A DNA stretch of 5,392 nucleotides from an uncultured Lachnospira sp. (lineage in GTDB: Bacteria; Bacillota; Clostridia; Lachnospirales; Lachnospiraceae). Every line of letters begins with the position of its first letter. Positions within the stretch are counted from its first letter, which is position 1. Made by a program: the position numbers and the translations under genes. The notes beneath the pieces are model-generated. The model did not search any database. It was given only the letters and a program-made list of their open reading frames with translations, and was not told where the DNA came from. The stretch covers positions 1 through 5,392 of the forward strand of contig CAMVRH010000069.1 of the NCBI GenBank assembly GCA_947169835.1, written 5' to 3'. Below are positions 2,502 through 5,202 of the stretch, piece after piece.

Positions 2502-2595
2502 AAGGATTCTTTGGCAGGCGTGGCAGTTCTCCTGCATCTCTTTTTACCCAAAGGGTGCGTGGTAGCCACGAAATTGACCACCTCAAAGAATCCTT
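2502..2595. repeat. 94-nt element bounded by a 12-bp perfect inverted repeat, with internal hairpins
   Basis: AAGGATTCTTTG (2502-2513) pairs perfectly with CAAAGAATCCTT (2584-2595). Inside, three further stems can form: GCAGG/CCTGC (2514-2518 with 2531-2535), ACCC/GGGT (2546-2549 with 2553-2556) and CGTGG/CCACG (2558-2562 with 2566-2570). This gives a closed multi-arm shape. The interior is richer in G+C than its surroundings. It starts 2 nt behind the nuclease stop codon, so on the minus strand it would be the 3' untranslated region of that mRNA. On the plus strand the closing stem runs into TTTTTT (2594-2599), which looks like the end of a small structured RNA. I do not recognise it as a known riboswitch, ribozyme or mobile repeat. 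A small palindromic mobile element is an alternative. Confidence 0.6.
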
Positions 2596-2597
2596 TT

Positions 2598-3725
2598 TTA
2601 ACTACAATAATCTTTCATTTCCTTCGCAAGGAATTCTTCCAATTGGCTTTTATCTGGTAGTTGAACCATATACTTAGAAATAAATATGTTTTCATCCATA
2701 CCATTCAACACATATTGAACCATTTTGGGTCCTTTCTCAGTACACATTAGTATCCCAATAGGTGGGTTGTCTCCTTCTGTCATTTCACAATCTTTGTAGT
2801 ACGAAACGTATGAATTTATTTGACCAATATGCTCGGGTTTAAACTTATCTGTTTTCAACTCGATTATTACATTACAATGTAATATACGGTTGTATAATAC
2901 TAAATCTATAAAATAGTAATCATCATCTATCACTATTCTCTTCTGTCTTGCTTCAAAGCAAAACCCATTTCCCATTTCTAATAAAAAATCTTGCAAATGA
3001 TCCATAAGGGCCTGTTCTAAATCTGATTCGTTTAATTTTTGATTAGCATCAATATTCAAAAAATCAAACATATACAATTCCTTTTCATCAAACTCTTGAA
3101 CTTCTGAATTATTTACAGTTTCTTCTAATAACTTTTTAGGGTTTTTACTTACACCTGCTCTAAAGAACAGTTTGCTAGATATTTGTCTATCAAGTTCCCT
3201 TACACTCCAACCACACTTGATGCATTCAAGCTCGTAGAAGTATCTTTCCATTGGATCATCAATGGACATTATTTTTCTAATATGTGTAAACGACAATTGA
3301 GTAATTAAGATTTCTGGGTCCAATTGGAATTTGTTACTCACTGAGTAACAAATCTCGTCTTTGTTTAATGTGACATCTATTTCATCAAAATGAGGCAATA
3401 GTTTGTCAAAATTTGGAATACTTTTCAATTTGGTCGTCACTGACGACCAAATCTGAGGATATTTTTGATAAAACATTCTGCATAGATTTAACCCTAATCT
3501 ATTAAGACCTTTAATCTGAAGCCTATTTGCTAATTCTTCCAATAAATTTTCACCATACTCCGCTCTATCCTCTCCTTTCTGCTCGTAATTAACAATATAA
3601 CAACCAATAACCCAATTCCTGATAGTCAACATCTGGTTGACAGCGCTTTTAGCTTGTGTTTTTGTGAACTCATCCAAACTCTTAACACTCTGAATTAATC
3701 CTTTAAAACTATTCTTTTCTTGCAC
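2598..3725 (-). CDS. DUF1016/YhcG-type PD-(D/E)XK nuclease
   Basis: A 375-residue cytoplasmic protein of the YhcG family: DUF1016 N-terminal helical domain (about 1-200) and C-terminal restriction-endonuclease-like fold (about 225-370). Active-site residues are visible in FIDLVLYNRILHCNVIIELK: Asp274, Glu289, Lys291, followed by FKPEHIGQINSYVSYY with Gln302. SIDDPMERYFYELECIKCGW and SVRELDRQI are typical family segments. Relatives are often found near restriction-modification loci and in accessory regions, and a DNA-processing or defence role is suspected, but no fixed substrate is established. Here the gene stands alone with its own promoter and terminator and no methylase or specificity subunit in view. 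The start is GTG at 3725, 8 nt after GGAGG (3738-3734). Between the two halves of the N-terminal domain, residues 92-133 contain a twice-used I-x-x-S-V-x-x-K motif, encoded each time by a perfect 25-bp palindrome. The length and active site appear intact. Confidence 0.93.
   Translation of the reverse strand: MQEKNSFKGLIQSVKSLDEFTKTQAKSAVNQMLTIRNWVIGCYIVNYEQKGEDRAEYGENLLEELANRLQIKGLNRLGLNLCRMFYQKYPQIWSSVTTKLKSIPNFDKLLPHFDEIDVTLNKDEICYSVSNKFQLDPEILITQLSFTHIRKIMSIDDPMERYFYELECIKCGWSVRELDRQISSKLFFRAGVSKNPKKLLEETVNNSEVQEFDEKELYMFDFLNIDANQKLNESDLEQALMDHLQDFLLEMGNGFCFEARQKRIVIDDDYYFIDLVLYNRILHCNVIIELKTDKFKPEHIGQINSYVSYYKDCEMTEGDNPPIGILMCTEKGPKMVQYVLNGMDENIFISKYMVQLPDKSQLEEFLAKEMKDYCS
3329..3353. repeat. 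Perfect 25-bp palindrome B inside the nuclease gene
   Basis: Two 12-base arms (3329-3340 and 3342-3353) are exact reverse complements around a single central base (3341). Outer bases are ATTTG/CAAAT and the centre is TCACTGA; the inner part is TTAC/GTAA. It begins exactly on the codon for Ile125 and encodes ICYSVSNK. As RNA it would fold into an 11-12 bp hairpin. The same layout occurs 99 bp upstream in the gene with different inner bases. Confidence 0.95.
3428..3452. repeat. Perfect 25-bp palindrome A inside the nuclease gene
   Basis: Two 12-base arms (3428-3439 and 3441-3452) are exact reverse complements around base 3440. Outer bases ATTTG/CAAAT and centre TCACTGA match the other palindrome, while the inner part is GTCG/CGAC instead of TTAC/GTAA. 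It begins on the codon for Ile92 and encodes IWSSVTTK. The compensated differences are what selection or a copying process acting on pairing would leave. Confidence 0.95.
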
Positions 3726-3785: not shown

Positions 3786-3810
3786 CATATACTTTATGTG
3801 ATAAATGTCA
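3773..3810. repeat. Two 12-bp direct repeats at the nuclease promoter
   Basis: TGTTAAATGTCA (3773-3784) and TGATAAATGTCA (3799-3810) agree at 11 of 12 positions and are 26 bp apart. The first overlaps the -35 hexamer and the second the right part of the CRP/FNR-like dyad. They could be two half-sites for one regulator, or chance in AT-rich DNA. Confidence 0.5.
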
Positions 3811-3816
3811 CATAAA
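3793..3816. promoter_or_regulatory. CRP/FNR-family-like operator upstream of the nuclease promoter
   Basis: TTTATGTGA (3793-3801) and TCACATAAA (3808-3816) are perfect 9-bp arms separated by 6 bp. The core matches TGTGA-N6-TCACA, the pattern bound by CRP/FNR-type regulators. The centre lies about 53 bp upstream of the predicted transcription start, just behind the -35, so an activator or repressor role are both possible. Which regulator binds is not shown by the sequence. Confidence 0.6.
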
Positions 3817-4611: not shown

Positions 4612-5202
4612 TCATTTCCTTCTTAGCAAAGCATTAAACCAAATCACATCTCTATCCCTTCTAGTATCCTCACTCTGCCACACTTTAACCTTCTCCATAC
4701 CAGAAATCTCCCCCAACACTTCCTCAAACCTTTCCTCATTCATATCCAGGAAATGTCTCTCCAGCATTTCACCCTCGAAGTCGCCATACTTAAATGACAT
4801 ATACACTATTCCACCTGGCACTAGCGCATCTCTTATCTTCTCTATCACGCCACCCAAGGTTTCCCTCTCGCAGTGTAATAGCGAAGCACACGCCCACACG
4901 CCATCGAATTCATTTTTCCACTGTATATCATTAAAGTCTAAACACTCTACTTCTATACCCAGTTTCTCTTTTGCCATTTTACACATAGCTGGGGAACCAT
5001 CTATAGCTGTTACATTATAGCCTTTGTCTATAAATGCTTTTGTATCTCTTCCTGATCCGCAGCCTAAGTCTAGGATTTTTGCGCCCTTGGGGATTAGGGA
5101 TAGGAAGTCAGTATAAAGGTACTCCACTTCTGCGTTCACTGTGGAGCTGAAGAATTCTTCTGTGTTGTTTTCGTAATAGGCTTTTGTTTTAGTATTCATC
5201 AT
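4612..5202 (-). CDS. Class I SAM-dependent methyltransferase
   Basis: A 196-residue cytoplasmic enzyme of the Rossmann-type methyltransferase fold (Methyltransf_25/11 style). Motif I is ILDLGCGSGRD (residues 43-53), the SAM-binding loop. The acidic residue for the SAM ribose is Asp68 in NVTAID. DFND (89-92) fits the adenine-contacting loop, and GVWACASLLHC (about 101-111) and VPGGIVYMSF (128-137) are motifs IV and VI. It is near the usual minimal length for the family, and no substrate-recognition domain is visible, so the substrate (small molecule, metalloid or protein) is unknown. Start choice: GAGG (5212-5209) touches the ATG at 5208 directly but is 6 nt from the ATG at 5202, so 5202 is preferred; ATG at 5199 is also possible. 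The start lies inside the last codons of the EF-hand gene, in another frame (14-bp overlap). The next gene begins 7 nt after the TGA stop. Confidence 0.92.
   Translation of the reverse strand: MMNTKTKAYYENNTEEFFSSTVNAEVEYLYTDFLSLIPKGAKILDLGCGSGRDTKAFIDKGYNVTAIDGSPAMCKMAKEKLGIEVECLDFNDIQWKNEFDGVWACASLLHCERETLGGVIEKIRDALVPGGIVYMSFKYGDFEGEMLERHFLDMNEERFEEVLGEISGMEKVKVWQSEDTRRDRDVIWFNALLRRK

Follow-up and report, generated by a model that had tools for sequence, protein, structure and literature searches.

In-frame palindromes in a DUF1016/YhcG nuclease gene as predicted recognition sites of the encoded protein

The stretch of DNA considered here (the window; 5,392 nucleotides of contig CAMVRH010000069.1, from an uncultured Lachnospira sp.) carries a gene of the DUF1016/YhcG family, a minus-strand open reading frame (ORF) at 2598-3725 that starts with GTG and encodes 375 aa. 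Both domains of the family score above their curated cut-offs: PF17761 (DUF1016_N; E 6.6e-27, 94.7 bits, cut-off 32.8) over residues 16-189 (3159-3680, minus strand) and PF06250 (YhcG_C; E 2.2e-53, 180.7 bits, cut-off 32.5) over residues 215-363 (2637-3083, minus strand). The former has a predicted ParB/Noc-like DNA-binding fold, and the latter is a PD-(D/E)XK nuclease domain, EndoMS/NucS-like. The protein also matches the PADLOC PDC-S02 model PDLC04807 (E 3.3e-117), a phage-defence candidate family. In an insert of the N-terminal domain lie two palindromes of odd type, with 12-bp arms and a single centre base: site 1, the upstream copy (3428-3452; ATTTGGTCGTCAGTGACGACCAAAT on the gene strand), is in frame over residues 92-99, IWSSVTTK, and site 2 (3329-3353; ATTTGTTACTCAGTGAGTAACAAAT on the gene strand) is in frame over residues 125-132, ICYSVSNK. 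We propose that they are probably recognition sites of the YhcG-type protein of the same gene, which would bind them as a dimer and thereby control its own expression. The confidence of this overall proposal refers mainly to recognition: that the protein recognises the palindrome is predicted from sequence comparison as very likely, while autoregulation is a more tentative step.

An earlier note on this DNA had described two perfect 25-bp palindromes here, and they are present as claimed, with centres 99 bp apart, each copy beginning on an Ile codon, the outer bases and the centre shared, and I-x-x-S-V-x-x-K encoded in both. Its claim of a matched change in the inner bases holds in that every difference is compensated on the opposite arm; three inner bases differ, not four (3 of the 12 half-site positions, the 4th, 5th and 7th from the centre). 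Such arms are indeed beyond chance, as about 5392 x 4^-12 = 3e-4 perfect 12-bp arm pairs are expected in the window. The closest relative fetched, in a Eubacterium sp. metagenome-assembled genome from sheep ileum (81% identity in the best segment), has one site that is perfect with other inner bases and a second with one broken pair. Judged by eye, the inner arms of the two in-gene copies are the same in four genes (L043, L176, L194 and L072) and partly different in two (L001 and L128); the window copies are therefore more diverged than some.

To place these sites in the family, DUF1016 genes were drawn from the family, order, class and phylum of the window, and from E. coli, plasmid, viral and phage records (for plasmids, nine of 453 matching records). 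With duplicates and partial genes dropped, 220 near-full-length genes remained, forming 157 clusters at 85% protein identity, and palindromes were scored +1 per pair and -2 per mismatch. An in-gene palindrome of score at least 10 is found in 79/157 representatives versus 37/3140 codon-shuffled versions; of the 83 in-gene sites with this score, 79 keep frame 0 and 78 fall between nt 250 and 400. For odd, frame-0 sites at nt 180-520, representatives exceed shuffles at a score of 7 (122/157 versus 3.5%; 171/220 by gene), of 9 (90/157 versus 0.4%) and of 10 (72/157 versus 16/7850, 0.2%). The codon-shuffle comparison that the earlier note had proposed favoured the palindrome strongly, since a score of 12 at nt 180-520 occurs in 34/157 representatives, the window included, and in 0/7850 shuffles. 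By this comparison, the sites are far more palindromic than the encoded protein demands. A palindrome of score at least 9 is present also in 47 of the 95 representatives without the peptide [IL]xx[ST][VLP]xx[KEQ]. Genes with in-frame palindromes span Bacillota, Pseudomonadota, Bacteroidota and Fusobacteriota, and five of the nine plasmid genes (Bacteroides, Methylomonas, Citrobacter, Pseudomonas putida and Cetobacterium) carry a site of score at least 9 at a similar place and in the same frame. Across the family, the first predicted DNA-reading helix precedes the in-gene sites and the second follows them, the sites themselves lying in the intervening insert. The DUF1016 gene of L057 has two sites (nt 303 and 351 from the start) of a different arm type, GATTGTGGGG/CCCCACAATC, that differ in their centres. 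At L102 (1496) an intact palindrome stands in what remains of a DUF1016 gene, about 37 codons, and no match to the gene longer than this was found in the fetched stretch.

Copies also stand at the edges of the genes. Flank sites of score at least 10 cluster in two zones, 15-40 bases before the start codon (8 sites in 3845 bases) and 10-40 bases past the stop (10 sites in 4650 bases). Their density there is about 2 per kb, and the remaining bins, up to 600 bases away, have 0 to 0.2 per kb. In a first, smaller set, 11 of 18 near flanking sites matched a stretch of 21-26 bases within the gene that they flank, a match ranking first to fifth among 134 genes, and 7 did not. Among 12 leaders inspected by eye, 11 have the site just before a ribosome-binding-like sequence; a promoter scan of the 12 placed the best promoter-like match upstream of the site in 4 and over or beyond it in 8. 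The 3' palindromes of L149 and L067 were rejected as gene-matched sites, since they resemble ordinary G+C-rich terminators and match nothing in the gene.

The bases of the site vary together with residues of the protein. Half-site positions are numbered outward from the centre (d1, d2, ...), and residues follow the window protein. The half-site consensus is A at d1, C at d2, variable bases at d3-d9, T at d10-d11 and A at d12-d13. When mutual information was computed between protein columns and half-site bases, excluding columns encoded by the site itself, the strongest pairs were 57-d12, 147-d3, 161-d2, 77-d7, 150-d4, 176-d2, 175-d3 and 80-d8. On the minus strand of the window, the predicted helix 76-88 (3462-3500) carries residues 76, 77, 80 and 81, which covary with d6-d9; the predicted helix 146-153 (3267-3290) carries residues 147 and 150, which covary with d3 and d4; the predicted helix 175-183 (3177-3203) carries residues 175 and 176, which covary with d1-d3; and Tyr57 (codon 3555-3557) covaries with d12. 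Counting one gene per cluster and omitting broken-pair positions, Arg77 goes with G in 43/43 clusters, Tyr80 with T in 30/30, Lys80 with G in 24/29, Glu80 with C in 6/6, Arg150 with C in 34/38, Lys/Arg175 with C in 23/25, Thr/Ser175 with G in 16/18, Ser147 with A in 65/68 and Gly147 with C in 8/8. In this comparison, bases 3, 4, 7 and 8 track residues 147/175, 150, 77 and 80, respectively, and the pairings make chemical sense, with Arg or Lys going with G, Glu with C and an aromatic residue with T.

Because shared ancestry alone could yield such residue-base tables, sister-pair and hold-out tests were made. Across 78 disjoint sister pairs, all eight residue-base pairs that passed Bonferroni correction belong to the N-domain; the ninth in the ranking is a C-domain residue, and C-domain residues take 8 of the top 30 places. 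In the hold-out, with training on genes less than 60% identical in the nuclease domain, d3 was predicted in 129/134, d4 in 141/164, d7 in 131/163 and d8 in 120/164, well above the nearest allowed relative. There was little gain over the most common base at d5 (141/161) and d12 (146/154), and d6 was not predictable in the hold-out from residue 77 (68/146, below the most common base). Sites in the non-coding flanks, which lay outside the training, obeyed the rule at 51/82 readable positions in 22 clusters, versus 0.37 by permutation (by gene: d3 18/25, d4 19/27, d7 15/29 and d8 17/28). Since these non-coding sites follow the rule, pure protein-protein covariation is excluded as the whole cause. 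For the window protein (Y57, L77, G78, N80, T147, R150 and V175) the rule calls for T at d3, for C at both d4 and d5, and for G at d8; site 1 agrees at d3, d5 and d8, and site 2 at d3, d4 and d8.

The yhcG gene of E. coli K-12 has three imperfect in-frame sites and a perfect 12-bp-arm site just after its stop; a further palindrome, with its innermost pair broken, lies just after gltD, at the opposite end of the gltF-yhcG segment and about 7 kb from yhcG. The first in-gene site differs by allele: AKNLR at the first helix goes with GCCAGACA and TRNLW with GTGCAGACA, the full site types being GCCAGACA-N-TGTCTGGC and GTGCAGACA-N-TGTCTGCAC, with a broken pair in the K-12 copy of the GCCAGACA type. 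Other clusters alone predict the same bases for these alleles at d3, d4, d7 and d8. The palindrome after E. coli yhcG itself varies from strain to strain (L076 1783, L078 1784 and L074 2784), either in its centre base or by one base on both arms simultaneously.

The predicted fold of the N-domain resembles the DNA-binding domain of ParB/Noc, whose parS and NBS sites are, like the putative sites described here, symmetric palindromes. Specificity in ParB/Noc arises from few interface residues, with one Arg reading G and another reading C:G, according to Jalal et al. 2020 (PMC7383237). Unlike in ParB/Noc, a nuclease follows the N-domain, and the site is about 25-29 bp long, in frame in most genes compared and lineage-dependent in its bases; no ParB_N (CTP-binding) domain was found among the Pfam matches of the window protein at E up to 1. 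A parS site presumably lies inside the spo0J gene of B. subtilis, although we found no paper for it. Searches of solved structures by sequence returned nothing or chance-level matches, and a viral fold library gave no significant match. The C-domain is an EndoMS-like nuclease. EndoMS is a mismatch endonuclease and is not known to have such an N-domain or a self-encoded site. PMC1189080 gives the PD-(D/E)XK catalytic motif as E-D-E(I/L/V)K, hence D274 and K291 would be catalytic; in that paper, from 2005, YhcG is listed as a predicted nuclease without an assigned function.

We suggest that the N-terminal ParB/Noc-like domain would make the contact with DNA, the protein binding as a dimer with one monomer on each arm. 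More tentatively, protein bound in the leader or about 300 bp into the gene may act as a roadblock to transcription and so hold a potentially harmful nuclease at low levels. Autoregulation by such a roadblock is favoured because the positions of the sites and the danger of the nuclease fit it. Among its options, the earlier note had named a site recognised by the nuclease for autoregulation; of this, recognition is well supported by the residue-base rule and the ParB/Noc-like predicted fold, whereas the autoregulation step is one that we infer. The site and the recognition helices lie within one short stretch of one gene, so inheritance and exchange can carry the two together.

Several observations weigh against this proposal. 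The earlier note would have counted homologues with its peptide but without paired arms against its own idea, and there are such genes: 19 of 62 representatives with the [IL]xx[ST][VLP]xx[KEQ] peptide in the region have no palindrome of score at least 9. Mean mutual information is almost equal for N- and C-domain columns, and because these means hardly differ the sister-pair and hold-out tests were added. Ser77, Gln80 and Thr147 favour no single base; prediction is only moderate in the flank sites, with clear failures; neither window copy is perfect by the rule, Leu77 falling outside the common tabulated residues; and in E. coli the second and third in-gene sites and the post-stop site are not all matched to the allele. 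Finally, an E. coli ST131 locus that lacks yhcG keeps a perfect palindrome, AATTCGCCAGACAGTGTCTGGCGAATT, between gltD and nanQ, with the same sequence as the first in-gene site in L074, L076 and L077. An exact match to all 35 bases of this junction was seen in 7/60 among the records listed; the 35-base query gives no count of empty loci, as the 562 records at at least 99% include shorter matches.

The ST131 locus fits homing or cassette exchange, in which the protein would recognise and cut the palindrome and the break would drive gain, loss or conversion, at such sites, of the nuclease gene and its accessory neighbours. The K-12 palindromes on either side of the gltF-yhcG segment point the same way, as does the invariance of D274 and K291, the likely catalytic positions, in 100 aligned proteins. 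Palindromes on viral contigs also argue for it, for in a strict scan 7 of the 11 such contigs show no DUF1016 ORF within the fetched stretch, and two identical viral copies enclose a gene pair. Homing endonucleases normally split their own recognition site; here, the sites of occupied alleles are intact, even those within the gene, and the enzyme would therefore cut its own gene. Moreover, no palindrome was found on the left side of the gltD-yhcG-nanQ allele, and other viral copies adjoin ordinary phage genes. We consider homing or cassette exchange unlikely, though still a live rival. A related view, also doubtful in our judgement, is that of a self-addressed nuclease, a ParB-like dimer joined to an EndoMS-like nuclease with the site in frame in its own DNA-binding domain, acting at its sites to pass its own gene and adjacent defence cassettes from genome to genome; enzyme, specificity and target would then travel together, the residue-to-base code would be readable, and single palindromes at emptied loci would be scars.

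The remaining explanations dispense with protein binding to DNA. Control at the RNA level, with transcript hairpins bound or cut by the protein, would suit the leader sites before a ribosome-binding-like sequence and those just after the stop, many of which are thus probably transcribed. It is very improbable in view of the mismatches and the centre of the sites: in sites of score at least 9, A.C and G.T mismatches have similar frequencies (weighted 14.3 and 12.4; unweighted and with weak sites included, 29 and 40), and the innermost pair, impossible in a hairpin loop, is kept in 57/84 odd sites chosen on outer pairs alone (8/19 for even-centred sites so chosen). We use this figure instead of 83%, which came from sites scored with that pair included. 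A DNA-binding dimer therefore fits better than a hairpin, and the residue-base pairs suit major-groove chemistry; the K-12 palindrome after gltD, given its distance from yhcG, also speaks against RNA control. The hairpin-keeping repeat of the earlier note was probably pitched at the wrong level, and we read the element instead as probably a self-encoded protein-binding site, as predicted by comparison. A mobile palindromic element of the Rickettsia kind, or template-switch copying, without any binding role, would agree with palindromes that recur, keep their arms matched, change fast and sometimes stand without a gene, and both had been raised by the earlier note. The own genome (79% complete) holds no other copy of the pattern ATTTG-N5-CAGTG-N5-CAAAT at fewer than two mismatches, while a loose count (up to 3 mismatches), in which the two sites themselves appear on both strands, gave 50 versus 21 for a backward control. 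In 299 family genomes, where the genome-wide search covered the commonest core only, that core, CAGACAGTGTCTG, lies at 63 exact places versus 42 for its reversed control; of 30 places fetched, 5 have a DUF1016 ORF and one a remnant, and L087, L100 and L109 resemble longer palindromes without the gene. No dispersed family thus emerges in the own genome or, for this core, in the 299, neither idea predicts the residue-base rule, and template-switch correction does not account for the near-centre symmetry either; we give these readings very little credence. Rickettsia palindromic elements (RPE) are likewise palindromic and in frame inside genes, as PMC4316617 describes, but are 100-150 nt long, whereas the sites here measure about 25-31 bp, occupy a single position in a single gene family and have matching copies in the flanks. 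The dispersal into many genes that marks RPE was found neither in the own genome nor for the commonest core in the family genomes. REP elements with RAYT proteins, which are Y1 transposases, likewise tie short palindromes to one protein family; unlike there, the window protein combines a PD-(D/E)XK nuclease with a ParB-like domain, and no dispersed extragenic repeats of that type were found in the own genome. As for protein constraint alone, which would make the DNA symmetry a by-product of a conserved peptide, an ICxTVSxK-like peptide is common in the close relatives aligned, but the codon-shuffle counts and the matching palindromes in non-coding flanks refute it.

Palindromes on viral contigs without the gene lie in mixed contexts, some adjoining phage structural genes and others putative AbiE-like, RloAB-like or toxin-antitoxin genes, so named from the look of their sequences alone. 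A relaxed scan added six contigs without a DUF1016 ORF, palindromic beyond the core in L332, L333, L335 and L338 and not in L334 and L337. On the viral contig L325, which has no DUF1016 ORF in the fetched stretch, two identical sites (4738-4765 and 6060-6087) with identical 67-base contexts lie about 1.3 kb apart and enclose two small genes resembling a toxin-antitoxin pair. CAGACA-N-TGTCTG palindromes stand at gene ends on three viral contigs with no DUF1016 ORF in the fetched stretch (L338 1342, L326 3205 and L335 8089), and in L326 and L335 an ORF crosses the site, read as IFQTLSGK. A protein query of genome contigs and a profile query of viral contigs each gave one relative. DUF1016 genes also occur in defence operons (L197, L202 and L203), flanked by pglX and pglZ in BREX-1 or next to type I restriction-modification genes. 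In the window, a skipping-rope RNA (Rfam RF02924, 66.2 bits, gathering 36.7) lies directly downstream of the DUF1016 gene at 2506-2591 (minus strand), and a CRP/FNR-like palindrome, TTTATGTGA-N6-TCACATAAA, at 3793-3816, immediately upstream of a TTGACA promoter-like sequence; the latter recurs in a close relative (L001 2008-2031) and differs in site type from the in-gene palindromes.

No DNA site for DUF1016/YhcG is given in the available portions of PMC1189080, PMC2672614 and PMC4316617, and that of PMC7967276 reports REP elements and antisense RNA near yhcG. We found neither a self-encoded site arrangement of this kind nor a paper joining DUF1016 with ParB in the open-access literature without bioRxiv. 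The in-frame, self-encoded site would thus be new, whereas palindrome recognition of the ParB type and autoregulatory sites are of a known kind. The arrangement is unusual in that a DNA-level signal would lie within coding sequence and evolve in step with the protein encoded there. PMC2672614 (2009) describes a yhcG deletion as synthetic-lethal with weakened replication genes, and this may be re-examined now that there is a candidate target. The predicted site and the residue-to-base rule make the DNA target of YhcG testable, in E. coli K-12 as well.
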